From contig JAFDWS010000003.1 of the NCBI GenBank assembly GCA_018268375.1, positions 1 to 64,000 on the forward strand: a DNA stretch of 64,000 nt. The letters are read 5' to 3'. This DNA is from Armatimonadota bacterium (GTDB lineage Bacteria; Armatimonadota; Fimbriimonadia; Fimbriimonadales; Fimbriimonadaceae). The number at the start of each line of letters is the position of its first letter. Position 1 is the first letter of the stretch. Under the pieces are notes generated by a model that saw nothing but the letters and a program-made list of their open reading frames with translations, ran no database searches and was not told the DNA's origin. Of the stretch, positions 5,096-63,410 are shown piece by piece. A program made the translations under genes and the position numbers.

Positions 5096-7326
5096 GCTTG
5101 GTCGCCGACTGGACGGTCGATTATGGCGACGGCCCACGGCCGTGCACAGTGCCCCACGCTTGGCGCCAAGACGTCGATGTCCGGTGGGAAGGGCCCGCCG
5201 TCTACGAGACCGAGGTCGAAGTAGTCGAACCCGGCCAATGGCTCCAGTTCGACGGCGTCAGCTACCACGCCCGGGTCTTCTTGAACGGTTCGCTGGCGCT
5301 CGAGCACCGTGGAATTTGGGACGCCTTCGCCGTGCCGTTGCCGACTGGTCAGACAAAGGTCAGGGTCGAGGTGACCAAGAACGGAGGTGCGTCGTTCCCG
5401 GTCAAAAACGTCCTCAGCGGCTTCTTGCCCTACGTCTTCAACACCTTTGGCGGGATATTCCGTGAAGTTCGGATCACCGGCGCTCCACCCCCTGCCCTCC
5501 CCGCCAGGGGCGACGGGATCGAGACCTCCCCAGACTTGGCAGCACAACCATCTGCCAGGTCCAAGGAGAGGGCCCCCAACTCGCGAATGAGCGTGGAAGG
5601 GACCAAGCTCTTCATCGACGGCCGGCCTTGGTACATGCGCGGCGTGCTGAGCTGGGGATGGTATCCGGACATCGGCTCGCCGCACCCCCCGATCGAGGTT
5701 GTCCGAGACGAGGTGCGAAAGATCAGGGCCCTCGGTTTCAACCTGGTTAAGTTCTGCCTTTGGCTTCCGCCTCACCACTACTTCCAAGTCCTTGAAGAGG
5801 AGGACATGTGGGCGTGGGTCGAACTGCCGCTATGGATGCCTTCGGAGGAAATGGACTTGGAGCTTGCCTTTGCCGAGGTCGAGCGGATTGTCTGGCAGTA
5901 TCGGCACCATGACCGGATCGTGTGCTGGACGTGCGGCTGTGAGCTTTCGGAGTCAACGCCTCACGAGTTCCGCAAGCGATTGTTCGAGATGGTCTCTGAG
6001 TTGACGGGGTGCCCGTTGGTGAAGGACAACTCGGGCGGGTCGGAGATGTATGGCGGCGACCTCCGCGAGTACGGCACCTTCTACGACTTCCACCCCTACT
6101 GCGACACGATGTTCTATCCGCCGGTGTTGGAGTCGCTGCAGATCGGGCCGCGGAAGAAGATGCCGGTCCTGCTGGGAGAGTTCAACGACTACGACGTGTA
6201 CCGGCCGCTCGGCCCACTGAGGAAGGACACACCCTACTGGGCGTCATCAGATCCAGCGTTGAACGACCAAGGCGTCCGATGGCAGCACGACTTGCCGGGC
6301 GTGCTTGCGGACAAGACGAAGGTGCTGGCGGATGATATAGAGGAGCATCTCAGAAACCTCTCCCAGGTAAAAAGCGGGTGGATTCGATTGTACGTGACAA
6401 GGCTGGTCGCCGCAGTAGACGACATCGCTGGCTACGTGGTGACGGGGCTGTCGGATACGCCCATCTCTATGTCGGGGGCCCTGTCGGCGCAGTGTCTCGA
6501 GAACATCTTCACAGACACGACCTACTTTCTGAACCCTTATCGCATGCCTCCTTGGATTAATGGGGGCAATCGCCCTGGTTGGCATGATCCCCACAACCAC
6601 TTTTGCGGAGTTGCCTCGCCGTCGCTGGGCTGTCGCTCCGTCGGTGGCCTCGAAACGACATTGAACGTGTCCTATGGCCTTAAGCCGAGGGTGCGCATCA
6701 AAAGGGAGGTGACGGTTCCCCCGAACTTGCCGGGAGAGCTGTTCAAGATAAGCCATGAATGGAAGACACGCTACGATCTCCTGTCGATTGTCGACGAAAG
6801 TCTACAACCATCCTCTCACTTCTCCCTCTCGTTCTTCGAGCCACTGGACTGGCGACTCTATCCGCAGTGGCATGTGTCGGATCCCCACGGCATCCTCGGT
6901 GGCCAGAGGAGAGGAGGAAACTTGGAAGTGTCAACTGCTTGGACAGGCACGCTGCAAGGCGGAATCGTCTTCTTGACTGATCACGGGACGGAGCCAGTGC
7001 CTTTCTGGCGCGAGTGCGTGACCTGGAATCGGGCCGGCGAGGACCTTTTTGACTCTTGGGACTTCCTGTTCCCCGTCTCCACCGACCGTGTCATCGATCC
7101 AGTCTGGCTGGATTCCGAGCTTCCTGGCGCAGAGTGGCTTCTGACCCGGGTGGACACCCGGACCTATCAGCGCCACCCGTATGTCGCGCGGAAAGGAAAT
7201 GTCGTCGTCACGACCCTGAGGCCTTGGGGCGGCCTTGGGGCGCAGCCGCCCAACTTCGAGAGCAACCCGGCTGGGCACGAGCTCATGAGGATTCTGATGC
7301 GGCTCGTCGAGGATCCGACGCCCTAG
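5092..7326 (+). CDS. Glycoside hydrolase family 2-like protein
   Basis: 744 residues. The N-terminal 1-130 resembles the GH2 sugar-binding jelly roll (WLQFDGVSYHARVFLNG, then GIFREVRI). It is followed by a TIM barrel with FIDGRPWYMRGVLSWGWYPD. The expected acid/base glutamate is E284 in WTCGCELSES, where GH2 enzymes usually have a Gly-Asn-Glu. The likely nucleophile is E363 in LLGEFNDYD. No signal peptide is seen, so it is probably cytoplasmic, acting on imported beta-glycosides; the sugar is unknown. It overlaps the preceding lipoprotein gene by 4 nt, and its stop shares a CTAG palindrome with the stop of the convergent SARP gene. Confidence 0.82.
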   Translation: MSLVADWTVDYGDGPRPCTVPHAWRQDVDVRWEGPAVYETEVEVVEPGQWLQFDGVSYHARVFLNGSLALEHRGIWDAFAVPLPTGQTKVRVEVTKNGGASFPVKNVLSGFLPYVFNTFGGIFREVRITGAPPPALPARGDGIETSPDLAAQPSARSKERAPNSRMSVEGTKLFIDGRPWYMRGVLSWGWYPDIGSPHPPIEVVRDEVRKIRALGFNLVKFCLWLPPHHYFQVLEEEDMWAWVELPLWMPSEEMDLELAFAEVERIVWQYRHHDRIVCWTCGCELSESTPHEFRKRLFEMVSELTGCPLVKDNSGGSEMYGGDLREYGTFYDFHPYCDTMFYPPVLESLQIGPRKKMPVLLGEFNDYDVYRPLGPLRKDTPYWASSDPALNDQGVRWQHDLPGVLADKTKVLADDIEEHLRNLSQVKSGWIRLYVTRLVAAVDDIAGYVVTGLSDTPISMSGALSAQCLENIFTDTTYFLNPYRMPPWINGGNRPGWHDPHNHFCGVASPSLGCRSVGGLETTLNVSYGLKPRVRIKREVTVPPNLPGELFKISHEWKTRYDLLSIVDESLQPSSHFSLSFFEPLDWRLYPQWHVSDPHGILGGQRRGGNLEVSTAWTGTLQGGIVFLTDHGTEPVPFWRECVTWNRAGEDLFDSWDFLFPVSTDRVIDPVWLDSELPGAEWLLTRVDTRTYQRHPYVARKGNVVVTTLRPWGGLGAQPPNFESNPAGHELMRILMRLVEDPTP

Positions 7327-10300
7327 GCGACCACTGCTTGGCCGAAGACTCGGGCGACGAGTGCGTCGTCCGGTGCCTGTTGCCCCCACGCCTGGGCTTC
7401 GGCAAAGGCCGTTGGGCCGAGGGCTTCCTTGACACGCGCGACTTCTCGTTGAAAGTCCTTATCGAGAGTCGGGAAGATCTTCATGCCGTACTTCTTCCGG
7501 CTTGCGTCAGCGCGTCCCCAAAGGACAGCGGCATCTTGCCATCTTCCCGCTCCGGCCATGACGTTGCCACAGATGGTCAAAGGGGTCTGTCCCAGGGCGA
7601 TTCCGTTCTCGACAAAGGTCGTCATCGCTCGCCTGGCGCTTTCGACCGCCCGTTCGGTCCAACCTTGGCGGTACTCGACGAGGCTGCGATAGTAAGCCGT
7701 GTGGGCGGTTTGATCCGGAATGTTGCGGTCGCTGAGGAGGGCCTCTGCACGGTCGAACAAACGCATCGCCTCATCACCATCGCGCTCGCCGACCGCACAC
7801 GCGAGACCGACAAGCGCTGAGACAATGGCCGACTGATCTCCCGAAGCCTCGGCATGCGCCAGCGAGTTCGCGAAAATAGGCTCAGACTCTGCTTCATCGC
7901 CGCGGTCGAAGTAAAGCCAAGCGAGGTTGACCTCGGCGCTTGAGACGGCCAAGGGATCACCCTCCTCCCGAAGGATTTCAAGGGCCTTCTGAACGCTCTG
8001 CTGGGCTTGGTCAAAGTTACCAAGGAGTGAGCCTGGGACAGCAATGTCGATGCGGCAACGAGCCTGGAGGGCGATATCTCCTGTCTGGTCGGCACAGCCG
8101 ATGGCAGAGAGATAGTGGCGATAGGTCGCGCCGATGTCCCTCATCCCGTAGCAGACGCGTCCCACTGCACGGTGGGCGAGCGTGGCCTCTCGTGAGTCAA
8201 GGGCGTCCCTCGTCCTTTCGATGAGTTCGGTGAGAGGTTCTGCCCACATGGCGTAACGGCCCTTGCTGCGCACCAAGACGCTGACTCCTTCGACCACTTG
8301 CCAGGCTCTTTTAGGATCCACCTCTCCTCGCGAGGCCGCCTTGATGACCGCGAGCAGGTTGGGTTTCTCTGCGTCCATGCGCTTCAGCCAGGCTTCGTCC
8401 CTCGGACTCCCGTCGCCTGCCAGTTCGGCGAAGAACTCGGCATGGCGAGCCAAAGCGTCGGACCGTTCCCCCGGAGAGCCGGAGAGATGCTCGGCGGCAT
8501 ATTCGCGAACGGTTTCCAGCATGTCGAACCGGACTTCGTCCTGGTTCTCGGACCAGTTGACGAGGGCGGAGCGGACGAGCTCGGCGATAAGCGAATCGGA
8601 ATCTGCTCCAAGGATCGCCCGGCCCAAGTCCTCGAGCCAGCCACCATGGCAGACACTCAGGGATCCGAAGGCGCGGGAACACTCGGGGTCGAGCACGCTG
8701 ACGCTCCACTCAACAATGCTCCTTAGGCTGCGATGGCGCTCGGGAACACGCTGGCTCTCAGTGGACAGGTCAACCGTCCGTCCGAACGACGCAAGTACCT
8801 GGACCGGGCTCTTTGTCGCCATGCGGCTGGCGGCGATTTCGACTGCGAGCGGGACCCCCTCCAGGCGGTGGCACAGCTCGAACACTCCAAGGGCGTTGAT
8901 TGGGCTGACCTCGAACCCCGGCCGTACCGCTCTCGCACGTTCGGACAACAGCTGGACGCACGGGTTCGCTCGGAGGGAGGCGATATCACGGTGGTCGCTT
9001 GGCAAAGGCAAGGGCTTGACCGCCCAGACGGTCTCCGTCGCAGCTCCGGTTGGCATTCGGGAGGTTGCCAGGATAGAAACTTGCGGAAGCATTGTCGAGA
9101 TACTTTCAATCGTCCTAGCGACGGAAGGAAGCAAGTGCTCGAGGTTGTCAAGCACGAGCAGGGCCCGTTCGTCACCAAGGATCCTGGCCAGGTCCCCCAG
9201 TGGCTCGGGACCGGGAACCAGAGAAGGCTGGACGCAACTGAGCAATGTGTCGACCACCTGGTTGTGAGCGCTCGTTCCGACCAGCGAGACGAACCAAACC
9301 CGACCGTCGAACTCTTGATCCAAGCTTTGGGCGACAGCTTGCGCGAGCCTCGTCTTGCCGCTGCCTCCGAGACCGGTCAGGGTCAGCAACAAGGAGCGGT
9401 CGTTTGGCGCCAAGAGTTGGCGGATGTCGGCAATGTCCTCGTCCCTACCGAAGAGTGTGCCTGCCTCTTGTCCGATTCGCTTTTCGGCAGGAGCTAATGA
9501 CACGGCGTCCTCCTGATCAATGCTGATCTCTCCGATGGCCACATGGGTCCGGTCTGGCCGGCGCGGAAGTGAATCGAGAATTTCGTGCGCCTCGTCTGAC
9601 GGGGACTCTCCCCACTCCTCGTCGAGCATTTTCTCGAGTTTCTCGAACTGAGCGACGACTGAAGCGGGCTTTTTCGCCGCGGCATACGCCCTCATGAGAG
9701 CGATGTGGGGCTCCTCCCGGCTGGGACAGATGGAAAGCGACCGACTTGCAAACTCGATGGCTCCGGCCGAGTCTCCCGCTGAGCACAAATCGACGACGAG
9801 CTCGGCCACTGCCTGGACAAAGGCTTCCTCCAAGTCGAGCGACTGCGGCAATATCCACTCCTCCGTGAATCCGGGAAGCAAAGTTCCGGAATAGAGGTTG
9901 CAAGCTGCGGCGAGATGCCTGACGCGGTCGGTTTGAGCCGTCTCGTTTCGCCTTGCTATTGCCAAGTGCTCTCGAAACTCCCTGACATCCACAGTGAAGT
10001 GCTCCGGACAGAGTTCTATGGTGGAGTGGTCCGAAAGGAACAGTAGGTCCCCGGGAAGGTCTTCGGCGTCGAAAGACGTGCGAATCGAAGACAGGGCTGT
10101 CCGAAGCGACTGCCGCCCTTGCGCCGAACCGCCTTCTGGCCAAAAGGTCTCGACGAGCGCGTCCTTTGGAACGGCCCGGCCCGAGTAGTACGCGAGGTGT
10201 GCGAAGACGCCGGCCGTCTTCTTGGTCCTGAACGTGGCGACTGCGATCCCTCGCTGGACCTTGAACGATCCGAGCGTGGTGACCGCCCAGCGAGCGGAAC

Positions 10301-10328
10301 CTCCGTTCTCGCGTGAAAGCTCGCCCAT
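7323..10328 (-). CDS. SARP/BTAD transcriptional activator with NB-ARC ATPase and TPR domains (AfsR-like)
   Basis: 1001-residue regulator with three parts. Residues about 15-95 are an OmpR-like winged helix for DNA binding. About 105-250 form the bacterial transcriptional activation domain, a helical repeat. The STAND/NB-ARC ATPase follows, with P-loop GLGGSGKTR at 319-327, Walker B ALLVLDNLEHL and the sensor ILATSR. The C-terminal third is helical TPR-like repeats that usually sense a ligand or partner. The layout matches AfsR-type regulators. The ligand is unknown. It is transcribed alone; a GATAAT box lies 8 nt before the ATG. A repeated motif at 10442-10474 upstream, shared with the beta-propeller gene, suggests those two genes may be its targets. 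Confidence 0.88.
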   Translation of the reverse strand: MGELSRENGGSARWAVTTLGSFKVQRGIAVATFRTKKTAGVFAHLAYYSGRAVPKDALVETFWPEGGSAQGRQSLRTALSSIRTSFDAEDLPGDLLFLSDHSTIELCPEHFTVDVREFREHLAIARRNETAQTDRVRHLAAACNLYSGTLLPGFTEEWILPQSLDLEEAFVQAVAELVVDLCSAGDSAGAIEFASRSLSICPSREEPHIALMRAYAAAKKPASVVAQFEKLEKMLDEEWGESPSDEAHEILDSLPRRPDRTHVAIGEISIDQEDAVSLAPAEKRIGQEAGTLFGRDEDIADIRQLLAPNDRSLLLTLTGLGGSGKTRLAQAVAQSLDQEFDGRVWFVSLVGTSAHNQVVDTLLSCVQPSLVPGPEPLGDLARILGDERALLVLDNLEHLLPSVARTIESISTMLPQVSILATSRMPTGAATETVWAVKPLPLPSDHRDIASLRANPCVQLLSERARAVRPGFEVSPINALGVFELCHRLEGVPLAVEIAASRMATKSPVQVLASFGRTVDLSTESQRVPERHRSLRSIVEWSVSVLDPECSRAFGSLSVCHGGWLEDLGRAILGADSDSLIAELVRSALVNWSENQDEVRFDMLETVREYAAEHLSGSPGERSDALARHAEFFAELAGDGSPRDEAWLKRMDAEKPNLLAVIKAASRGEVDPKRAWQVVEGVSVLVRSKGRYAMWAEPLTELIERTRDALDSREATLAHRAVGRVCYGMRDIGATYRHYLSAIGCADQTGDIALQARCRIDIAVPGSLLGNFDQAQQSVQKALEILREEGDPLAVSSAEVNLAWLYFDRGDEAESEPIFANSLAHAEASGDQSAIVSALVGLACAVGERDGDEAMRLFDRAEALLSDRNIPDQTAHTAYYRSLVEYRQGWTERAVESARRAMTTFVENGIALGQTPLTICGNVMAGAGRWQDAAVLWGRADASRKKYGMKIFPTLDKDFQREVARVKEALGPTAFAEAQAWGQQAPDDALVARVFGQAVVA

Positions 10329-54246: not shown

Positions 54247-54843
54247 ATGCCGAGTGAGGGACGACCGATCTGGACACTGGGCCGGCAGCTGGTCGGCAAC
54301 ATTGTGCCTCTCCTGATCGCTCTTCCCCTGCTCGTCCTTGGGGGGATCAAAGCTCAGACCGAAGGGTTCTTTGGGCAAGCACTCTTGCTCCTTCTGGGAT
54401 CGGTTTCAGTGGCTTGGCTGGCGACCAACTTCATTGGCCTTGCTGGAGGTTGGGGCCTGAAGGCTGAGATGGGGCGTCGTCTCCACCAGGAGAGGCCGTT
54501 TGACAAGAGCGAGAAGCTGTTCGTTGGGTTCAGCCGGCCCCAGTTCAGCGGCTGGCTTGATCCTCACGAGGACGTCGGCTTCTTGATCATTCATGCCGAC
54601 CGCCTTGAGTTCTTCGGAGGTGGGCGTCGGGTTGAACTCTCAAAGTCCAACGTTGAGAAGATTCGGTTCAAGCCCAACATCCACACCTGGGTCGGTCTAG
54701 GAGGATGGACGGCGATCGAAGGGCAGGCAGACGGGACGCCCGTTCGAATGTTGGTCGAACCTCGAGAGCGTCCAACTCACCTTGGAAACGCAGTGCTTGG
54801 TCGCAGACTCAGAAAGCGGCTTGCAGAATGGCTTTCGGCTTGA
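54247..54843 (+). CDS. Hypothetical membrane protein, 198 residues
   Basis: No family recognised. Two membrane helices at about 13-35 (LVGNIVPLLIALPLLVLGGI) and 44-66 (ALLLLLGSVSVAWLATNFIG) are followed by a cytoplasmic domain with beta strands (VGFLIIHADRLEFFGGGRRV, EKIRFKPNIHTWVGLGG) suggesting a PH-like fold. It is divergent from addB with almost no spacer and ends one base before the convergent methyltransferase gene. Confidence 0.65.
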   Translation: MPSEGRPIWTLGRQLVGNIVPLLIALPLLVLGGIKAQTEGFFGQALLLLLGSVSVAWLATNFIGLAGGWGLKAEMGRRLHQERPFDKSEKLFVGFSRPQFSGWLDPHEDVGFLIIHADRLEFFGGGRRVELSKSNVEKIRFKPNIHTWVGLGGWTAIEGQADGTPVRMLVEPRERPTHLGNAVLGRRLRKRLAEWLSA

Positions 54844-54844
54844 G

Positions 54845-55585
54845 TCAGGCAGCCTTCTTGCCATGGCAGAACCCGCGGCAGTGAGCGATTTCGCGGGGCT
54901 GGTCCACAAGCTTCCAAACGCTCACGTCCGGAAAGCCTGCCGCGATCGTCATGAGCCCAAGGCAACTGACGGACGGCGCCCACCAGTTGGTCTCGTTGTT
55001 CCCATACTCGTTGTTCGGATAGAACTCCATGACGGGCTGAGCCCCGGAATAGCCGTTGCCGAGTCCACCCTGGTAGGGGCTGAAGTCGTCGAGAATGGCT
55101 GTCTCGACAAAGATCTCGCCGTCACAGATGCTTGAGAGGACGTCCAGCGCGAGCAGGGGATAGCGGAGGTGATAGAGGGTGCCGAAGAAGAAGACCACGT
55201 CAAAGCGGCCCAACTCGTCTTCCGTCGCGTTGTAGACGGACAGCTCACGCCGTTGGCAGACCTCTTCCGAGTACCCGAAGGCTCCACGGCACAAGTCGAA
55301 CGTCTCCCAAGCATGCCGGTCCTTGTTCTCGAGCAGGCCGAGATAGTCGCTGAAATCGTCGATCGCCACGACCTGGCTCGCGCCCCTCTTGAGGGCTTCA
55401 AAGCTCCAGAACCCGTCCCATGCCCCAACGTCGAGGACTCGCTTGCCAGTCAGGTCTTCGGGGATCCTGTATGCCTCGGGCGACAGCGGTGCCCAGCCGG
55501 GGGTCGTGATTCCTCCAGGAAGCTCGATCCTGTGGTACCAGAACGGGAAGGAGTCGACTTGAGCCTGAAGGTCGATCGTCTGCAT
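54845..55585 (-). CDS. SAM-dependent methyltransferase, CmoB-like
   Basis: 246 residues. Motif I VLDVGAWDGFWSFEALKRGA is the class I SAM site. FPFWYHRIELPGG and FGTLYHLRYPLLALD match the CmoB/DUF1698-like group, and NNETNWWAPSVSCLGLM is also typical. CmoB itself modifies tRNA wobble uridine, but many relatives act on sugars or natural products. It lies beside three GT41 genes and a flagellin, so modification of the flagellin glycan is a reasonable guess. It is divergent from them, with 91 nt between. Confidence 0.78.
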   Translation of the reverse strand: MQTIDLQAQVDSFPFWYHRIELPGGITTPGWAPLSPEAYRIPEDLTGKRVLDVGAWDGFWSFEALKRGASQVVAIDDFSDYLGLLENKDRHAWETFDLCRGAFGYSEEVCQRRELSVYNATEDELGRFDVVFFFGTLYHLRYPLLALDVLSSICDGEIFVETAILDDFSPYQGGLGNGYSGAQPVMEFYPNNEYGNNETNWWAPSVSCLGLMTIAAGFPDVSVWKLVDQPREIAHCRGFCHGKKAA

Positions 55586-55676
55586 AGGTCAATTCTCGGC
55601 CCCTGGGTGAATTACCTGCAGCACTTCAGGTTTCTAGCCTACAAACTTCGACCGAAATGCCAAGAATCAGGGCAGG

Positions 55677-57419
55677 ATGTCCGTCGCGCACATCGCTTTG
55701 GATCCGCTCGCGGAAGCGGTTCAGCTGCACTGCTCTGGCCAGACAGAGGCGGCCGAGGCGCTCTACAGGTCGGTTCTTGAACACACGCCGAACCGTCCCC
55801 GGGCGGCTCAGTATCTCGGTGTTTTGCTGTTCCAAGGGAACCGCCGCCAAGAAGGTCTCGCACTGTTGCGCCGCTCCGTCGAGGTCAATCCGGGAGATGC
55901 AGAAGGTTGGAGCAATCTCGGCAATGCCCTACGCGTCACCGAAGACCGCGGCGGCGCTATCCAGGCCCTCCAGAAGGCGATTGAACTCGACCCCCGGAAC
56001 GCTGCTGCCTATTGCACTCTCAGCGCCTGCTTGCGCCATCCTGGTTCGCTGATCGCCTCCATCGAGGCGGCACGGGCCGCTGTACGACTCCAGCCGCAGA
56101 TGCCCCAGGCCCACTGTAACCTTGGCCTGGCCCTGCTGGACTTGGGCGATGTCAAGGCGGCCGTCTCTGCCTTTGAACAAGCACGCTATATCGCGCCGCA
56201 GTTCGTAGAGGCTCTCCAGGGCCTCCTCTTCGCCGCCCACTACTCGGAGCGCCACAGCGCTGCCGACATTTGCTCAATCGCACGCGAGTTTGAACTCCTC
56301 TCGCAGCGGCAGGCAGGATTCAGCCGTATCGGAGTGAGCGTGGTCGGCTTTGTCTCCGGAGACTTCAAGCAGCATCCGGTCGCTTACTTCCTTGAACCCC
56401 TTCTGAGAGGGCTCGCAGACCGGGACATCAAGGCGATCCTCTACTCGAGCTCCACAAAGAGCGATTCCTGGACTGACCGGCTGATCGCCGCCGGTGGAGA
56501 ACTGGTCTCTATCGCTGACATGGGCACACCTCAGGTCTTGCAGCAGATTCGAGACGATGGCGTCGACGTCCTGATCGACCTGGCCGGCCACACGGCCAAC
56601 AACAGGTGGGACATCTTCGCCAACCGGGCAGCACCGGTGCAAGCATCTTGGCTCGGCTATTCAGGGACGACCGGCCTTCCGAACATGGATCTCCTCCTTG
56701 CGGACGAGGCGACGGTGCCTTCGGGCGATGAGCGCTTTTACACCGAAGCTGTCGTGAGACTTCCGCAAAGCTTGTTCTGCTTTGACCCGGCGAGGCTGCC
56801 AAGCCCATCCGGGAACCTTCCCAGCGTGGCTAAGGGGCACGTCACCTTCGGCTCGTTCAACAATGTCTCGAAGCTCAGCCCGAAGACGGTCGCCCTGTGG
56901 TCGCAAGTCCTGACCGCGGTTCCGGAATCAGTCATGCGAGTGAAATCCTTCCATCTCTCTGAGCAGGGCGTGGCCGATCGCCTCCTCCGGCTCTTTGCCC
57001 AGAACGGTGTCAGTTCAGACAGGATCGAGGTTCGGGGTTGGACTCCGGAGGGCGCCCAGTTCGCAGATTACAACGAAGTCGACATTGCACTCGATAGCCA
57101 CCCCTATTCGGGAGCCACAACGACGATCGAGGCCCTGGCGATGGGTGTGCCTGTCGTGAGCTTGACTGGCGACCGGTACGCGTCGCGCATGTCTCATAGC
57201 CTGATGACTGCGGTCGGAAGAGGCGAATGGTCGTGCGAAACGGACGAGCAGTTCGTCGACACCGCCGTCTCTCTCGCCAGTGACCCGGTTGCCTTGACGC
57301 AGATTCGTAGCAGCTTGAGAGGAGAGGTCGAGGCGTCACCCCTCTGCGACCACGAGGCCTACACCGAAGCGTTTCTGAGTGCACTGGTTGGCGGCAAGGA
57401 AATGAGAAAAGGGGCCTGA
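55677..57419 (+). CDS. TPR/GT41 O-GlcNAc transferase-like protein 1
   Basis: 580 residues. Residues 1-205 are about five TPRs (WSNLGNALRVTEDRGGAIQ). The GT41 catalytic domain begins VVGFVSGDFKQHPVAYF with the catalytic-type histidine. DVLIDLAGHTANNRWDIFA, VQASWLGYSGTTGLPNMD and FGSFNNVSKLSP (lysine of the UDP site) follow, then DIALDSHPYSGATTTIEALA. These match the SPINDLY/OGT family that puts GlcNAc or fucose on Ser/Thr. First of three tandem genes pointing at flagellin. Start: ATG 55677 with GGCAGG just upstream. Confidence 0.92.
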   Translation: MSVAHIALDPLAEAVQLHCSGQTEAAEALYRSVLEHTPNRPRAAQYLGVLLFQGNRRQEGLALLRRSVEVNPGDAEGWSNLGNALRVTEDRGGAIQALQKAIELDPRNAAAYCTLSACLRHPGSLIASIEAARAAVRLQPQMPQAHCNLGLALLDLGDVKAAVSAFEQARYIAPQFVEALQGLLFAAHYSERHSAADICSIAREFELLSQRQAGFSRIGVSVVGFVSGDFKQHPVAYFLEPLLRGLADRDIKAILYSSSTKSDSWTDRLIAAGGELVSIADMGTPQVLQQIRDDGVDVLIDLAGHTANNRWDIFANRAAPVQASWLGYSGTTGLPNMDLLLADEATVPSGDERFYTEAVVRLPQSLFCFDPARLPSPSGNLPSVAKGHVTFGSFNNVSKLSPKTVALWSQVLTAVPESVMRVKSFHLSEQGVADRLLRLFAQNGVSSDRIEVRGWTPEGAQFADYNEVDIALDSHPYSGATTTIEALAMGVPVVSLTGDRYASRMSHSLMTAVGRGEWSCETDEQFVDTAVSLASDPVALTQIRSSLRGEVEASPLCDHEAYTEAFLSALVGGKEMRKGA

Positions 57420-57421
57420 AA

Positions 57422-59509
57422 ATGAGCAAGCTGTTGAAACAAGCCATGGGTAACGCTGCCGCGCTGCGGCCCGGGGGCGCTGCGCCCGACCTGAGCGCGC
57501 TGATTGAAAGAGCACTGGACGAGCACCAGAAGGGGAACCTTGGAGCGGCCGCCATGCTCTATGGACAGATCCTTGATCGCGATCCAGATAACTTTGACGC
57601 TCAACACCTGTTGGGCGTCGCCGCCTATCAGTCTGGCAATCACAGCGAAGCGCTTGACCTTTTGACGAAGGCGATCAAAGTCCACCCCGGTGCTGCCGAC
57701 GCGTACTCGAACCGGAGTGCAGTATTCATGGCCCTTGGTCGGTTCGAAGAGGCTCTAACAGATTGCCTCATGGCGCTCCAGATCGCCCCTGGCAGCCCTG
57801 ACGTCGAATTCAATGCGGGCAATGCCTTGGCCATGCTTGGTCGCCGTGAGGAGGCCGTGGAGCACTATCGCCGAGCCTTGGCGACACGGCCCTTCTTCGT
57901 GGCATGTCTCACGAACCTCGGAAGCGAGCTTCTGGATCTTGATCAACTGGAGGAGGCACGCGAACTGCTTGAGAAAGCGATCGAACAGGACGCGCATCAC
58001 ACGAAGGCCCTTCTGAACCTTGGCGTGTATTACCAACAGATCGGCCGGCCCGACATGGCCAAGAGGTACATGGAGGAGGCGGTCAAGGTCGAACCCCGCT
58101 ATTCGCGCGCACACGCCAATCTTTCCAACCTTGCCCTTTCGCACGGCGACGTGACGAGTGCACTGCGCTCCGGACTGTCCGCGGTAGCCCACGGCGCAAA
58201 CACCACCGAGGGCCACAACTGCCTCGGCAATGTTTACCGAGCGATGGGCATGCCCCGCGAGGCGTGTGTAGAGTTCGAAGCGGCCATCGGAGCCGACCCG
58301 TCGGCGACGGCGTGCCACAGCAACCTTGTCTTGTCCATGTTGGCTGATCCCACTCGGACACGAGAGCAGATCGGGCGCGAAGCTGTTCGGTACGGCACAC
58401 TTCACGCTCCCTGGCGCCCAGCGCCTCCTCGTCCTTCAGGATCACCAGAGCGGATCGGCTTCGTCTCTCCAGACTTTCGAACCCATCCAGTGGGCTTCTT
58501 CCTCGAGCCCCTGCTGGCCAATTGGAAGGGCCCCGACGTGGTGCTCTATTCCAACTCGCGGCAGGAGGACGGCCAGACGAGGAAGCTCAGGTCTCTGACT
58601 TCGGAATGGCGTGACATCCGGCACCTCGACTCGGCTCAAGCCTCCGAGCTCGTGAGGCAAGACGGGATCGACATCCTCATCGACTTGGCTGGCCACACGG
58701 CGGACGGGCGCCTTGATGTTTTCGCACAACGGCCCGCACCTGTCCAACTTTCTTGGCTGGGTTACAGCGGCACGACGGGGCTGAGCCAATTCGACGCCCT
58801 CATCGCTGACCCGACCGTTATTCCGGTTGCCCACGAAGACGACTACTCGGAGCCGATTTATCGGCTGCCCCACAGCTTTGCCTGCTTGTACGACCTTGGC
58901 GCGCCCGATTTGGACAGGCCGAAACAATCTGCCGGGCCGGTGACGTTCGGCTCGTTCAACGCCACTTCAAAGGTCAATAGTGTGGTCGTAGAGGCTTGGT
59001 CGAGAATTCTGGCCGAAGTGGAAGGATCCCGCCTGCTGCTCAAGAACATTTACTTTGGGGACGAGACGGTCCGCCAGCACTACGCCCGGGCGTTCGAGAG
59101 CAACGGGCTCGACGCGGACAGGCTCACCTTCGTGGGCCAGACTTCGCGCGAGGCCCACTGGGAAGACATCGTCCGTGCCGACATCGCCCTCGACAGCTTC
59201 CCTTACACCGGTGCGACGACAGCTCTGGACTGCCTCTGGATGGGGGTTCCCATGGTGACCCTTTTGGGAGAGCATTACGCGGCTCGCATGGCGGCATCGT
59301 TCATCCGGACCGCGGGTCATCCCGAACTGGTCACGAATTCAGTCGAGGACTATGTTGCGACAGCGGTCGCCCTCGCCCGCGACCCAGTTGGGTTGGGCGC
59401 AGTCCGGTCGAGCTTGCGTTCGAAAATCATGGACAGTCCCCTCGGTGACGCGGAAGGGTTCTCTCGCGACTTCATAGGCCTCTTGCTTGAGATTTGGGGC
59501 AACAGATGA
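57422..59509 (+). CDS. TPR/GT41 O-GlcNAc transferase-like protein 2
   Basis: 695 residues, the longest of the three. About seven TPRs fill 25-310 (FDAQHLLGVAAYQSGNHSEA, AYSNRSAVFMALGRFEEALT). GT41 signatures: IGFVSPDFRTHPVGFFLEPL, DILIDLAGHTADGRLDVFAQ, LGYSGTTGLSQFDALIADP, FGSFNATSKVN and DIALDSFPYTGATTALD. All catalytic positions seem kept. It starts two bases after the stop of protein 1, so it is translated from the same message. The extra TPRs suggest a different partner or acceptor. Confidence 0.92.
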   Translation: MSKLLKQAMGNAAALRPGGAAPDLSALIERALDEHQKGNLGAAAMLYGQILDRDPDNFDAQHLLGVAAYQSGNHSEALDLLTKAIKVHPGAADAYSNRSAVFMALGRFEEALTDCLMALQIAPGSPDVEFNAGNALAMLGRREEAVEHYRRALATRPFFVACLTNLGSELLDLDQLEEARELLEKAIEQDAHHTKALLNLGVYYQQIGRPDMAKRYMEEAVKVEPRYSRAHANLSNLALSHGDVTSALRSGLSAVAHGANTTEGHNCLGNVYRAMGMPREACVEFEAAIGADPSATACHSNLVLSMLADPTRTREQIGREAVRYGTLHAPWRPAPPRPSGSPERIGFVSPDFRTHPVGFFLEPLLANWKGPDVVLYSNSRQEDGQTRKLRSLTSEWRDIRHLDSAQASELVRQDGIDILIDLAGHTADGRLDVFAQRPAPVQLSWLGYSGTTGLSQFDALIADPTVIPVAHEDDYSEPIYRLPHSFACLYDLGAPDLDRPKQSAGPVTFGSFNATSKVNSVVVEAWSRILAEVEGSRLLLKNIYFGDETVRQHYARAFESNGLDADRLTFVGQTSREAHWEDIVRADIALDSFPYTGATTALDCLWMGVPMVTLLGEHYAARMAASFIRTAGHPELVTNSVEDYVATAVALARDPVGLGAVRSSLRSKIMDSPLGDAEGFSRDFIGLLLEIWGNR

Positions 59510-61335
59510 ACGCGGCTGCTCTTCATTACGCTGTCGCGGACTTCGAATCGGGCTTACGCGCTTACGAGGCCAAGCGGTACGACGAGGCGCTTGCCCTGCT
59601 CTCGGATGTGACGGCCAGCGATCCCTCGCACATTGAGGCGAGGCACGTGCTCGCCCTCACACAGCGTGCCCTCAAGATGCTTGACGCTGCGGCAGTCAAT
59701 CTCTCGGAGGTCATTCGATGTCAACCCAAGAACGCCGAAGCCTGGAGCAATTTCGGCGCGATCCTCCGTGAGTCTGGGCGGTTGTTCGAGGCATTGGAGG
59801 CACTTGAAGCCTCCCTGGAATTTGATCCCAAGAGCGCCCTGGCACAAAACAATATCGGGACTGTGTTGCTCGACCTTGGTCGCGTTGAAGAGGCGCGGGA
59901 CGCCTTTCAGCGCGCGATCAATCTGCGGCCCGACTATCCAGATGCGCTGGCCAACCTTGGCAGAGCCCTTTTCGAGTGCGGCGACGTCGCCTCAGCCCGG
60001 CAAGTGACCCGGTCGGCTTTGGCGCTGAATCCGGATCATTGCGAGGCCCTCAATGGGCTCTCGTTTGTCTGCGCGGCGATCGGAGACGTCGAGTCTGCCC
60101 TCGGGCACCTGGAGGCTGCAGCCGAGCTTGATCCCACGAATGGCCGAATTCAATCCAACGTTCAGCTACGGAGCCTCGCCATGGATTCGCTCACAGCGGC
60201 GCAGATCCGTGACAGAGCCGAAGCCTGGGGGCGGGCCCAGGGGCCGAGCCGCCGAGGAAGCCTTTCGCCAAATTCCATCGCGACTATCGGTTTCGTCTCT
60301 TCGGACTTGAGGCAACACCCGGTCGGGCTCTTCGCCGAACCCGTCATTGCTCATCTTGGAAATGAGTTCCGTGTCGTTTGCTACTCGAGCAAGCCACACC
60401 ATGACGCCGTCACAGAGCGAATCAAAGGCTCGGTCGCGGAGTGGCGCGACATCGCAAAGCAAGACGCGTCAAGGGTGGCAGACCAGATTGCCGCCGACGG
60501 CGTCGATCTCTTGATTGACCTGTCAGGGCACACTGCCGACAACCGGCTCGACGTGTTCGCCCTGAAGCCGGCGCCGCTTCAGATGACCTGGCTGGGCTAC
60601 TCGGGCACGACGGGGTTGCCCCAAATGGACTTCCTCCTCGCGGATCCCGTGGTTGTTCCGGAGGAACACGAGGCACTTTATTCCGAGCGGGTCGTCCGGA
60701 TGCCGCACTCGTTTGCATGCTCGTTCCTCGAACCCCGAGACTTGCCTCGGGCCCAGAATAAAGGCGGAGTCGTCTTCGGGGTCTTTAATAACCCAAGCAA
60801 GTTTTCACGCTCCTGCTACAGGATGTGGGCCGAAATTCTCCGCCGACAGCCAGGTTCGAGGCTCCTCTTCAAGTACCAGTTGTCGGGGGACCGCTGGGTT
60901 CAGCGACAGCTCCTTGCCAAGTTCGACGCCGAAGGCATCGCCACCGACCGCATTGACTTCTCTCCCTATGTGTCCCAGGATCGGCATTTGGAGATCTTGG
61001 CGGGGGTCGACCTTGCCCTCGACACGTTCCCCTACTCGGGAGCGACGACGACCCTCGATTGCCTTATCGCCGGCACGCCTGTCGTCACATTGACGGGCGG
61101 CCGCTATTCGGCCAGAATGTCGGCCAGCTTTATGACGGCCCTGGGCGTCACCGACACGGTTTGTCAAGACGAGTCGAACTACGTTGCCACCGCCTTGGAG
61201 CTAGCCAATGATCCGCTCCGGTTGAACGACATCAGGGATCGGATTCGACGCTCCTGGAAAGGTTCGCCCTTGTGCGATGTCGCTCAGTTCCAGCTGGACT
61301 TTGCCGCACTTGTCCAGAGCCTGCCCGCCCTTTGA
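59506..61335 (+). CDS. TPR/GT41 O-GlcNAc transferase-like protein 3
   Basis: 609 residues from the ATG at 59506, which overlaps the previous stop (ATGA). About six TPRs (1-215: WSNFGAILRESGRLFEALEA, YPDALANLGRALFECGDVAS). GT41 signatures IGFVSSDLRQHPVGLFAEPV, DLLIDLSGHTADNRLDVFAL, GVFNNPSKFSRSCYRMW and DLALDTFPYSGATTTLDCLI. It ends 57 nt from the 3' end of the convergent flagellin gene, with a strong terminator between. Confidence 0.92.
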   Translation: MNAAALHYAVADFESGLRAYEAKRYDEALALLSDVTASDPSHIEARHVLALTQRALKMLDAAAVNLSEVIRCQPKNAEAWSNFGAILRESGRLFEALEALEASLEFDPKSALAQNNIGTVLLDLGRVEEARDAFQRAINLRPDYPDALANLGRALFECGDVASARQVTRSALALNPDHCEALNGLSFVCAAIGDVESALGHLEAAAELDPTNGRIQSNVQLRSLAMDSLTAAQIRDRAEAWGRAQGPSRRGSLSPNSIATIGFVSSDLRQHPVGLFAEPVIAHLGNEFRVVCYSSKPHHDAVTERIKGSVAEWRDIAKQDASRVADQIAADGVDLLIDLSGHTADNRLDVFALKPAPLQMTWLGYSGTTGLPQMDFLLADPVVVPEEHEALYSERVVRMPHSFACSFLEPRDLPRAQNKGGVVFGVFNNPSKFSRSCYRMWAEILRRQPGSRLLFKYQLSGDRWVQRQLLAKFDAEGIATDRIDFSPYVSQDRHLEILAGVDLALDTFPYSGATTTLDCLIAGTPVVTLTGGRYSARMSASFMTALGVTDTVCQDESNYVATALELANDPLRLNDIRDRIRRSWKGSPLCDVAQFQLDFAALVQSLPAL

Positions 61336-61341
61336 ATGCAA

Positions 61342-61368
61342 CGAACCCCGGGCTAGGCCCGGGGTTCG
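61342..61368. terminator. Bidirectional terminator between the GT41 operon and flagellin
   Basis: CGAACCCCGGGC (61342-61353) pairs perfectly with GCCCGGGGTTCG (61357-61368) around a 3-nt loop, placed between two converging genes. Confidence 0.85.
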
Positions 61369-61391
61369 AAGGTCGCTTGTCGGTCGGGATC

Positions 61392-62795
61392 TTAGCCGCG
61401 CAGCAGTGAGAGCACTGCTTGCGGAGCCGAGTTCGCCTGGGCGAGCATCGACAGACCGGACTGCTGCAGGATCTGCAGCTTGGTGTAGCTGGTCATTTCC
61501 TCGGCGACGTCGACGTCGGCAAGGTCGCTGAGCGTAGCGGAGAGGTTCTCCTTGGCCACGTTCATAGCGCGGACGTTGGACTCGACCGTGTTCTTCATGA
61601 ACGAACCGATGTTTCCTCGGTTGGTCGAGATGGACTGGATGGCGCTGTCCAGAGTGCTGAGAGCGCTCGTGACAGAACCCGTGATGTCCAAGTTGCTCAG
61701 GCCGAGGGCGTTCGTGCTGAAGTTGGAGAGGTTGAGGTAGGACGTCTGCCCACCGTTCGCACCCAACTGGAACGAGCTCTGACCCGCGGAGATCTGCACG
61801 GCACCGGTGAGGGTGGCGACAGAGGTACCGCCGGCGACCGTGAGCTTGACCACGTTGCCGTTCGTGTCCTTAAGGTTGAGGCCGGTGCCGCTCGAGAACG
61901 CAGCCGTGGCGGTGCTCGTGCCGTAGTTGTACGTCACGTTAGCCAGGGCGTCAGCGCCCGCGTCGGTGGCAGTCGTGCCCGCACCGAGGATGAGTCCACC
62001 AGCGCCGTCCGTGACGTTGACCGTCTGGTCGCTGCCGTAGTTGACGGAGTTGAACTCGATGTGGTCGGTGACAAACGTCGCCTGGACGCCGGTGCTTCCG
62101 GAGGCGCCATTGACCTTGTCGATGACCTGCTGGACCGTGTCGCCATTGGCCACCGAGAAGGCGTAACCATTGACGGTGAAGGTACCGGCGGACGTGACAG
62201 CGGTCGTCGTCGCGGAATAGGTGACGGTGCCGGCAACGTTAGCCTGGGCGGCAGCCTGGGTGACGTCGACGTCCAACGTACCGCTGGAAGTCATGGCCGT
62301 CGAGCCAATTGTGCCGCTGGTGAACGCGCTGGCGATCTTGTCGGTGTTAGCGACCGTCGCAGAAGTGCCGGCGCTGCCATCGAGAAGCTTGCGCGAGCCG
62401 AAGGCGGTGGTGCTGGCGATGCGATCGACCGAAGCCATGATGTTGTTCAGCTGCGTCTGGTTGGCCTGCTTCTGGTTGGCGTCGAGCGACGCGTTGCCGT
62501 TGGCGACCGCCAGGGAGCGGGCATCCCGAAGGAGGCGGCTGATCTCGTCAAGAGCACCGTCGGCGGTCTTGGCGTAGTTGATGGCGTCCTGGTTGTTGCG
62601 CAGGGCGGCGTCCATACCGCTGATCTGCTTGCGATAGCCTTCGACAGCGATCAAGCCGGCGGGGTCGTCAGCGCCTGAGTTGATTCTCAGACCGGTCGAC
62701 AACCGGTTCGTCGACTTGGAAAGTTCCGCACCCGTAGCGTTAAGGCTGCGGAACGCCGTCATGGCTGAAATGTTGGTGTTGATCCTATACGACAT
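61392..62795 (-). CDS. Flagellin
   Basis: 467 residues from the ATG at 62795 (SD GGAGGA, 5 nt spacing). Conserved N-terminal D0/D1 MSYRINTNISAMTAFRSLNA with RLSTGLRINSGADD, and C-terminal D1/D0 with NRGNIGSFMKNTVESNVRAM and SYTKLQILQQSGLSMLAQAN. The centre (about 180-390) is Thr/Ser/Ala-rich and includes a flagellin-IN-like repeat (GTFTVNGYAFSVANGDTVQQ), surface-exposed in the filament and a likely site for O-glycosylation. A longer upstream reading (62945) has no homology. It is adjacent to three GT41 genes. The symbol is left open because two flagellins are present. Confidence 0.96.
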   Translation of the reverse strand: MSYRINTNISAMTAFRSLNATGAELSKSTNRLSTGLRINSGADDPAGLIAVEGYRKQISGMDAALRNNQDAINYAKTADGALDEISRLLRDARSLAVANGNASLDANQKQANQTQLNNIMASVDRIASTTAFGSRKLLDGSAGTSATVANTDKIASAFTSGTIGSTAMTSSGTLDVDVTQAAAQANVAGTVTYSATTTAVTSAGTFTVNGYAFSVANGDTVQQVIDKVNGASGSTGVQATFVTDHIEFNSVNYGSDQTVNVTDGAGGLILGAGTTATDAGADALANVTYNYGTSTATAAFSSGTGLNLKDTNGNVVKLTVAGGTSVATLTGAVQISAGQSSFQLGANGGQTSYLNLSNFSTNALGLSNLDITGSVTSALSTLDSAIQSISTNRGNIGSFMKNTVESNVRAMNVAKENLSATLSDLADVDVAEEMTSYTKLQILQQSGLSMLAQANSAPQAVLSLLRG

Positions 62796-62927: not shown

Positions 62928-62981
62928 CATTGCTGTCAGTACCATTACTGGCCAGCAAAACCACGGGTGTCAGACTCGTGC

Positions 62982-62987
62982 TACGCT
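62982..62987 (+). promoter_or_regulatory. -10 box for the gene at 62994 (leaderless)
   Basis: TACGCT ends six bases before the ATG. Confidence 0.4.
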
Positions 62988-62993
62988 GAAGAC

Positions 62994-63410
62994 ATGACCC
63001 TCAACGAATGGGCTTCGCGCCTCAAAGCTGGCATCTATGAAGACCTCTTGGCGAGGAGGGCGCCGAGGGAGGGCCAATACGACGAGGCCGCCTTGCGAGA
63101 AGCCCAGGCGAAAGGTGAACCCAAGGCTGGGCCGACCGTCTTTTCGCCCAGGCTGGCACGGTTCGAATTCATTTTCTCGAACCCTGACGGTGCGGCGAAC
63201 GTCGTGCCCGTCACCGTCGAACCACCGCAACGCATCGTGTTCCTGCCCGTCCCGGGTTGGGTCGTGGAGTCGATTTGGCAAGGCGAGGTGGACGGCTCCT
63301 ATCACTTCGAGAGCGACGCCGACTCCTTGCTTGCTGCCTTCGCTTCGGAGCTTGATGCGACGACCAACGCAAAGTACTTTGGGCCGCGACCTGCGAAGCG
63401 CAGAGAGTAG
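62994..63410 (+). CDS. Hypothetical protein, 138 residues
   Basis: No family recognised. It is soluble, without signal peptide or membrane helix. Helical charged N-terminus (TLNEWASRLKAGIYEDLLAR), then a beta-rich middle with FSPRLARFEFIFSNPDGA and RIVFLPVPGWVVESIWQGEV, then a helical tail ending KRRE. The start at 62994 is chosen for the TACGCT box and because the longer reading frame has no support. Divergent from flagellin. Confidence 0.6.
   Translation: MTLNEWASRLKAGIYEDLLARRAPREGQYDEAALREAQAKGEPKAGPTVFSPRLARFEFIFSNPDGAANVVPVTVEPPQRIVFLPVPGWVVESIWQGEVDGSYHFESDADSLLAAFASELDATTNAKYFGPRPAKRRE

Follow-up and report, generated by a model that had tools for sequence, protein, structure and literature searches.

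Which protein is modified at a locus where three tandem genes for glycosyltransferases of family GT41, each with tetratricopeptide repeats (TPR), run towards a flagellin gene and are preceded by a methyltransferase gene? This question is raised by the end of the window, i.e., the whole stretch of 64,000 nt analysed here, which corresponds to contig C6:1-64000 of a draft genome (3.83 Mb, 12 contigs, 92.6% complete) from the Fimbriimonadaceae (Armatimonadota). The three enzymes, GT1, GT2, and GT3, together with the methyltransferase (MT) probably represent a flagellin-modification cassette of this family, in which glycosylation is combined with methylation. Directly observed are the genes themselves, their operon-like spacing, the intact catalytic residues, and a conserved place next to flagellin.

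The cassette and its place next to flagellin

The gene order in the window is H54331> <MT GT1> GT2> GT3> <flagellin H62967>. MT is divergent from GT1-GT3 (55677-61335, +), which converge on flagellin (-). The features are as follows:

54331..54843, + strand: H54331, conserved protein of an unclassified family, start uncertain; left flank, outside the cassette
54845..55585, - strand: MT, class I S-adenosylmethionine-dependent methyltransferase with a CmoB/EvdMO1-like fold (Methyltransf_9, E 2.1e-11)
55677..57419, + strand: GT1, TPR-GT41 glycosyltransferase of 580 aa (PF13844, E 1.7e-43; catalytic residues intact)
57422..59509, + strand: GT2, TPR-GT41 glycosyltransferase of 695 aa with the longest TPR region (PF13844, E 1.7e-50; catalytic residues intact)
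59506..61335, + strand: GT3, TPR-GT41 glycosyltransferase of 609 aa (PF13844, E 4.8e-55; catalytic residues intact)
61342..61368, no strand: G+C-rich inverted repeat between the convergent GT3 and flagellin genes, read directly from the sequence
61392..62795, - strand: flagellin (FlaA) of 467 aa, starting from MSYRINTN, the proposed acceptor (Flagellin_N, E 5.9e-33; Flagellin_C, E 7.2e-21)
62967..63410, + strand: H62967, conserved small protein of an unclassified family; right flank past flagellin

MT and GT1 are separated by 91 bp, GT1 and GT2 by 2 bp, and GT3 and flagellin by 56 bp, and GT2 overlaps GT3 by 4 bp. Due to the 2-bp gap and the 4-bp overlap, GT1-GT3 probably form a single operon. 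The layout given in the first-pass annotation, namely three tandem TPR-GT41 genes with a 4-nt overlap and a 2-nt gap, a methyltransferase gene before them and a flagellin gene on the opposite strand after them, agrees with the open reading frames, their coordinates and spacings, and the Pfam matches, including PF13844 and TPR families for the three enzymes.

Among 61 relatives, flagellin was found in 57, GT41 in 20, and a strong MT match in 11, of which 10 also carry GT41 genes. Extended to 85 family genomes and with a presence threshold of E<1e-100, MT occurs in 16 and GT41 in 42 (the above 20 plus 22 of 48 genomes searched further); a weak MT match in G063 (E 1.3e-22, 38%) was left out of the MT counts. 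GT41 is present in 15 of the 16 MT genomes versus 27 of the 69 others (Fisher p = 6e-5, a value that overstates the evidence because the genomes share descent). This co-occurrence of MT and GT41 is near-exclusive, and judged by gene content the methyltransferase (METHYLTRANSFERASE) marks the cassette. Where cassettes were predicted from MT alone, all five genomes had two or three GT41 genes divergent from MT, with flagellin next to them in three.

Three GT41 genes per cassette are found in G000, G001, G002, G010, G011, G090, and G101, two in G006, G018, G035, G087, G088, and G107, and four in G013, so that the presence of exactly three paralogues, to which the first-pass annotation attached weight, is not essential. 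The last GT gene converges directly on flagellin in 9 of the 14 determinable cassettes (G000, G001, G003, G010, G013, G018, G087, G090, and G107; the cassette of G101 ends at a contig edge and is outside the 14). A GT gene beside flagellin that is conserved in relatives, as looked for in a flagellin glycosylation island, is thus observed. The comparison of relatives for which the first-pass annotation had called therefore came out in favour of its GT41-flagellin association, and the inclusion of the methyltransferase is comparatively supported likewise. In G000, G001, G010, G018, G087, and G107, which represent several genera, the order from H54331 through flagellin is uninterrupted, irrespective of the presence of GT3.

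H54331 was found in 41 of the 61 relatives. At 11 of 11 sites inspected in cassette-less genomes, which were picked by match coordinates and then all inspected, it directly adjoins flagellin with no cassette gene in between. Thus, the cassette is a unit that was either acquired or discarded at this exact position; the trees computed here cover single genes. Past flagellin, H62967 occurs in the cassette genomes G001, G013, G090, and G107 as well as, in the window's orientation, in the cassette-less G005, G020, G026, and G028.

The window genome has no GT41 genes besides GT1, GT2, and GT3, and its three flagellin genes comprise the cassette neighbour, one on C12, and one on C4. Positions 1-1758 of the window are identical to C12:1-1758 reversed. 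The two contigs therefore overlap, and the partial flagellin gene at the window's left edge is that of C12 over again. The inverted repeat at 61342..61368 is probably a two-way terminator; it was not reported by a terminator scan, which requires a T-run. Sigma-70 promoters were rejected after a scan with two sites versus 1.2 expected, both within GT3, and Pfam and NCBIfam searches gave no match for H54331. Elsewhere in the window (7323-10328, -), a 1001-aa regulator with BTAD, NB-ARC, and TPR regions is encoded, an architecture better known from actinobacteria.

Active sites, donor sugar, and methyl transfer

By PF13844 (149-187 bits at a cut-off of 25) plus N-terminal TPR families, as well as by the catalytic His, the phosphate-binding Lys, and the Thr pair, GT1, GT2, and GT3 all belong to GT41. 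The active-site His and Lys and the donor-pocket Tyr and Thr are retained in 39 of 39 cassette GT41 domains. All seven inspected residues are kept in 36 of these, and the single changes in the other three spare His495/498, Lys, Tyr744, and Thr748. At the position of human C917, Tyr is found in all 39 domains, and at that of H920 Ala or Gly (Tyr and Ala, respectively, in GT1-GT3), hence the pocket of human O-GlcNAc transferase (OGT) is not found in the three enzymes. The best PDB match of GT2 is SPINDLY, a plant O-fucosyltransferase (8dtf, E 2.3e-90); of the two SPINDLY traits compared, GT1-GT3 have the Tyr at the Tyr744 position of the donor pocket, and HP instead of HS as catalytic motif. As a separate observation, 14 GT41 match segments (about seven genes, loci L078-L080) occur in the cassette-less G005, none of them in the H54331-flagellin site, and six inspected domains belong to another subtype with HS and GTTT motifs as in SPINDLY.

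In a tree of 45 GT41 domains from the Fimbriimonadaceae and 30 out of 132 from elsewhere, GT1 falls into a clade common to several genera (88/97, and 99/85 inside). The GT2 clade (98/97) likewise spans several genera and also takes in G004, G032, and one Nitrospirillum sequence. For GT3, a group is supported within the window's genus only, beyond which the tree gives no resolution. This topology supports GT1, GT2, and GT3 as old, separate paralogues. The catalytic domain starts near residue 223 in GT1, 341 in GT2, and 259 in GT3, so that the TPR regions are unequal in length, in line with the first-pass annotation. The division of labour suggested there is plausible: the ortholog groups of GT1 and GT2 across genera speak for it, whereas the GT3 group is supported only within the window's genus.

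With respect to the donor, NeuB matches in the window genome are only weak and partial (best E 9.4e-10, probably kin of DAHP synthase), i.e., the NeuB expected of an FlmG-type system was not found, and PF01973 (named MptE-like in the Pfam copy used), the domain of Maf flagellin transferases, gave no match at E<=0.001 in this genome. For these two reasons, a nonulosonic acid donor is improbable in the window genome. Among the 61 relatives, cassette genomes carry full-length NeuB more often than the others (5 of 10 versus 3 of 51, p = 0.002); nonulosonic acid as universal donor was nevertheless rejected. The window genome contains gmd followed by a GDP-fucose-synthase-like (fcl-like) gene, the latter with 408.8 bits below the curated 500. 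When 41 genomes were searched, all 9 with a cassette had gmd; in the family as a whole, 14 of the 15 cassette genomes have it, versus 42 of 69 without cassette or MT (p = 0.016), and it is also present in G024. Since the cassette genome G107 (99% complete) is devoid of gmd, GDP-fucose as universal donor was rejected. From this gene content GDP-fucose is a possible donor, and a small hexose or deoxyhexose nucleotide of this kind has a slight edge over UDP-GlcNAc and nonulosonic acids.

The predicted model of MT (mean predicted local distance difference test score, pLDDT, 76) matches the folds of CmoB and of EvdMO1, an everninomicin sugar methyltransferase, which was solved with D-fucose. Due to the fact that many class I methyltransferases tie within 1-2 Z in the fold list, the substrate is not fixed by the fold. 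MT is 63-80% identical between genera, compared to mostly 30-50% for the GT41 proteins. One reading of these values is that MT acts on a constant small substrate and the GT41 enzymes track a changing acceptor.

Unfolded flagellin, as the acceptor, would be bound in the cytoplasm by the TPR superhelices of the three enzymes, and before export their GT41 domains would add sugar in O-glycosidic linkage to the Ser/Thr residues of flagellin, or to one another's products, the enzymes thereby sharing the work. MT would O-methylate the sugar or a sugar precursor, which would place the methyl group on the sugar.

GT41 proteins with replaced catalytic residues in genus g30

In the sister genus g30, G107 contains H54331, MT, two intact GT41 genes, and flagellin in this order. 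In its seven congeners (G032, G102-G106, and G108; loci L193 and L239-L244) MT is absent and the single GT41 protein is a GT2 relative of 734-742 aa, here termed GT2*. Except for G032, where it is located beside H54331 only, GT2* is situated between H54331 and flagellin in all of them (G102-G106 and G108), in the order H54331> GT2*> <flagellin. All 7 of 7 copies are full-length but have lost the catalytic Asp and His as well as the Tyr and Thr of the donor pocket, with R/Q/K/N, T/S, A/V/S/C, and M/I/Q, respectively, in their place. A similarly damaged GT2-like protein is encoded by G004, which also lacks MT. MT is thus absent where the cassette GT41 lacks its catalytic residues; catalytic competence and MT go together, which supports a single pathway.

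GT2* is under strong purifying selection. The nonsynonymous and synonymous distances (dN and dS, Nei-Gojobori) of G102/G103 amount to 0.004 and 0.545 for the TPR part and 0.004 and 0.455 for the catalytic part, and those of G105/G106 to 0.008 and 0.446 and to 0.015 and 0.73, i.e., dN/dS is about 0.01-0.02 in these two close pairs, compared to 0.20-0.55 in three active GT41 pairs. The more distant dead pairs G102/G108 and G103/G108 are less extreme, with dN/dS of about 0.07-0.16 at near-saturated dS. Of the six ladder Asn residues in the TPR part, all seven dead copies retain three, four of the seven retain one more, and two are mostly or wholly lost. Due to this partial loss the peptide groove is altered, and the ladder was rejected as proof of an unchanged peptide ligand of GT2*.

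These patterns make it likely that the TPR-GT41 scaffold has a role beside flagellin other than catalysis, and we consider it evenly balanced whether the g30 orthologue of GT2 is specifically a flagellin-dedicated pseudo-glycosyltransferase; the GT2* proteins may also have acquired a changed chemistry. As a pseudo-glycosyltransferase, GT2* would reveal a catalysis-independent flagellin job of TPR-GT41 proteins, e.g., as chaperone, export pilot, or regulator, that outlives glycosylation and methylation.

Competing explanations and known systems

Seventeen flagellins, all of cassette genomes, form one clade (100/96) that comprises the cassette-adjacent flagellin and a close paralogue and partly reflects shared descent (ten cassette genomes were labelled in these counts, and the flagellins of G024 are not included). 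Within cassette genomes, the Ser/Thr fraction of the flagellin middle is 0.281 for the cassette type versus 0.246 for the closest paralogue (9 versus 9, p = 0.002), and in comparison with the six flagellins beside dead GT41, which stem from one genus and include near-copies, it is 0.277 versus 0.240 (p = 0.01). A clear cassette-driven enrichment was rejected, as the effect is weak and the conserved termini differ slightly too (p = 0.04). The description of this flagellin as Ser/Thr-rich is thus correct insofar as it is slightly richer than its relatives, but only slightly, and the trait is an ordinary one.

Several observations weigh against a flagellin-modification cassette. Between cassette-type flagellins and their cassette-less orthologues (0.264), the Ser/Thr fraction shows no significant difference (p = 0.11, and p = 0.17 with 12 versus 11). 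Flagellin does not adjoin the cassette in 5 of the 14 cases (G002, G006, G011, G035, and G088); in G002, H54331-MT-GT1-GT2-GT3 is located ~130 kb from flagellin-H62967. The cassette of G003 is split, with GT2-GT3-flagellin on one contig, without GT1, and MT on another. G024 (72% complete) is the sole genome with MT (65% identical) in which GT41 was not found, and GT41 occurs in the 27 MT-less genomes often away from flagellin. Furthermore, the conserved adjacency may go back to one event, H54331 and flagellin being old neighbours.

This last point leads to the explanation that the GT41 enzymes modify other proteins and neighbour flagellin only since the cassette landed there once and stayed. 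The 11 genomes with H54331 and flagellin as neighbours without a cassette, the five cassettes without a flagellin neighbour, and further family GT41 genes away from flagellin, e.g., in G005, are in agreement with it. We nevertheless regard it as unlikely, for MT-GT-flagellin persists in G013 and G090 even where the cassette has no H54331 next to it, and an apparently inactive GT41 stays by flagellin in six genomes. In addition, the MT of G003 (L196:82-846) comes right after cheX, collinear with cheC, cheD, cheB, and cheR, and this place in a chemotaxis row provides a second, independent tie to motility. Across many phyla, flagellin lies within about 10 kb at 13 of 80 GT41 loci; since these are the best 80 of 524 relatives, the sample is not random, and the 13 include the locus of G010 itself. 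That MT is a housekeeping enzyme, such as a CmoB-like tRNA enzyme, and a mere neighbour appears quite unlikely. CmoB is its closest PDB sequence and among its closest folds, and MT occurs without GT41 in G024, where in our reading it is situated downstream of a tRNA-dihydrouridine synthase gene. On the other hand, MT is far under the CmoB cut-offs (51.7 bits versus 209 for NF011650; 48.6 versus 275 for TIGR00452), its match to the CmoB model is confined to the C-terminal part of the model, EvdMO1 fits the fold about equally, and GT41 accompanies it in nearly all MT genomes; as MT is found in only 16 of the 85 family genomes, it is not a housekeeping gene.

Similarly improbable is a strict O-GlcNAc transferase activity with UDP-GlcNAc as donor, despite the family name and the HP motif at the catalytic His as in human OGT. 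O-GlcNAc transfer, which the first-pass annotation mentions for flagellins of a few other groups, is not indicated because GT1-GT3 have not conserved the GlcNAc-holding residues of human OGT (PMC9715652). That study argues that a Tyr at the C917 position, present in all cassette domains, leaves insufficient space for GlcNAc, and reports TtOGT, with Tyr there as well, to be without O-GlcNAc activity and XcOGT, likewise with Tyr, to have a single plant-lysate substrate (PMC9715652). Improbable as well is the explanation that TPR-GT41 proteins are chiefly flagellin chaperones or export regulators with glycosylation as a secondary function; the persistence of g30 GT41 proteins without catalytic residues next to flagellin under strong purifying selection fits it, but it leaves MT unexplained and the catalytic residues are retained in the cassette enzymes.

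If the flagellin-modification cassette is real, the Armatimonadota gain a system in which multiple individual TPR-GT41 enzymes work with a methyltransferase of their own. Related genomes with an intact cassette, an apparently inactive GT41, or neither at the same flagellin site would then represent a natural experiment in which flagellin binding can be told apart from glycosylation, an issue unsettled for TPR glycosyltransferases.

Among the known systems, human OGT, XcOGT, and TtOGT share the TPR plus GT41 architecture and the catalytic His and Lys. Human OGT differs by C917 and H920 versus Tyr and Ala in GT1-GT3, and XcOGT and TtOGT have Tyr as here (PMC9715652). SPINDLY, the best PDB match of GT2, resembles the cassette enzymes in the donor-pocket Lys, Tyr, and Thr (8dtf; PMC9715652). 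It differs by its HS motif, in contrast to HP in the cassette enzymes. GmaR of Listeria is not known to be a GT41 protein. It is similar in being a glycosyltransferase that also regulates flagella and differs in acting by binding the repressor MogR (PMC9638930). FlmG of Caulobacter is likewise a cytoplasmic enzyme composed of TPR and a GT-B part, which binds flagellin through its TPR part, but it is a single enzyme and needs pseudaminic acid (NeuB), for which the window genome has no full match (PMC7591256). Enterobacterial flagellin islands combine a GT41 gene with a methyltransferase function near the flagellin gene; they carry one to three GTs each, several contain sugar-synthesis genes, and most GT41 proteins have a fused methyltransferase domain (PMC4875605). 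Unlike these islands, the cassette of the window, which belongs to another phylum, encodes its three TPR-GT41 enzymes and the divergent methyltransferase as separate proteins, and no sugar-synthesis genes adjoin it. In titles and opening parts of abstracts of the openly licensed literature, neither an Armatimonadota TPR-GT41 flagellin system nor an inactive flagellin-linked TPR-GT is described. GT41 with a methyltransferase in flagellin islands and flagellin binding by a TPR-GT are already known, and, as far as these sources reach, the putative pseudo-enzyme branch is the more novel part.

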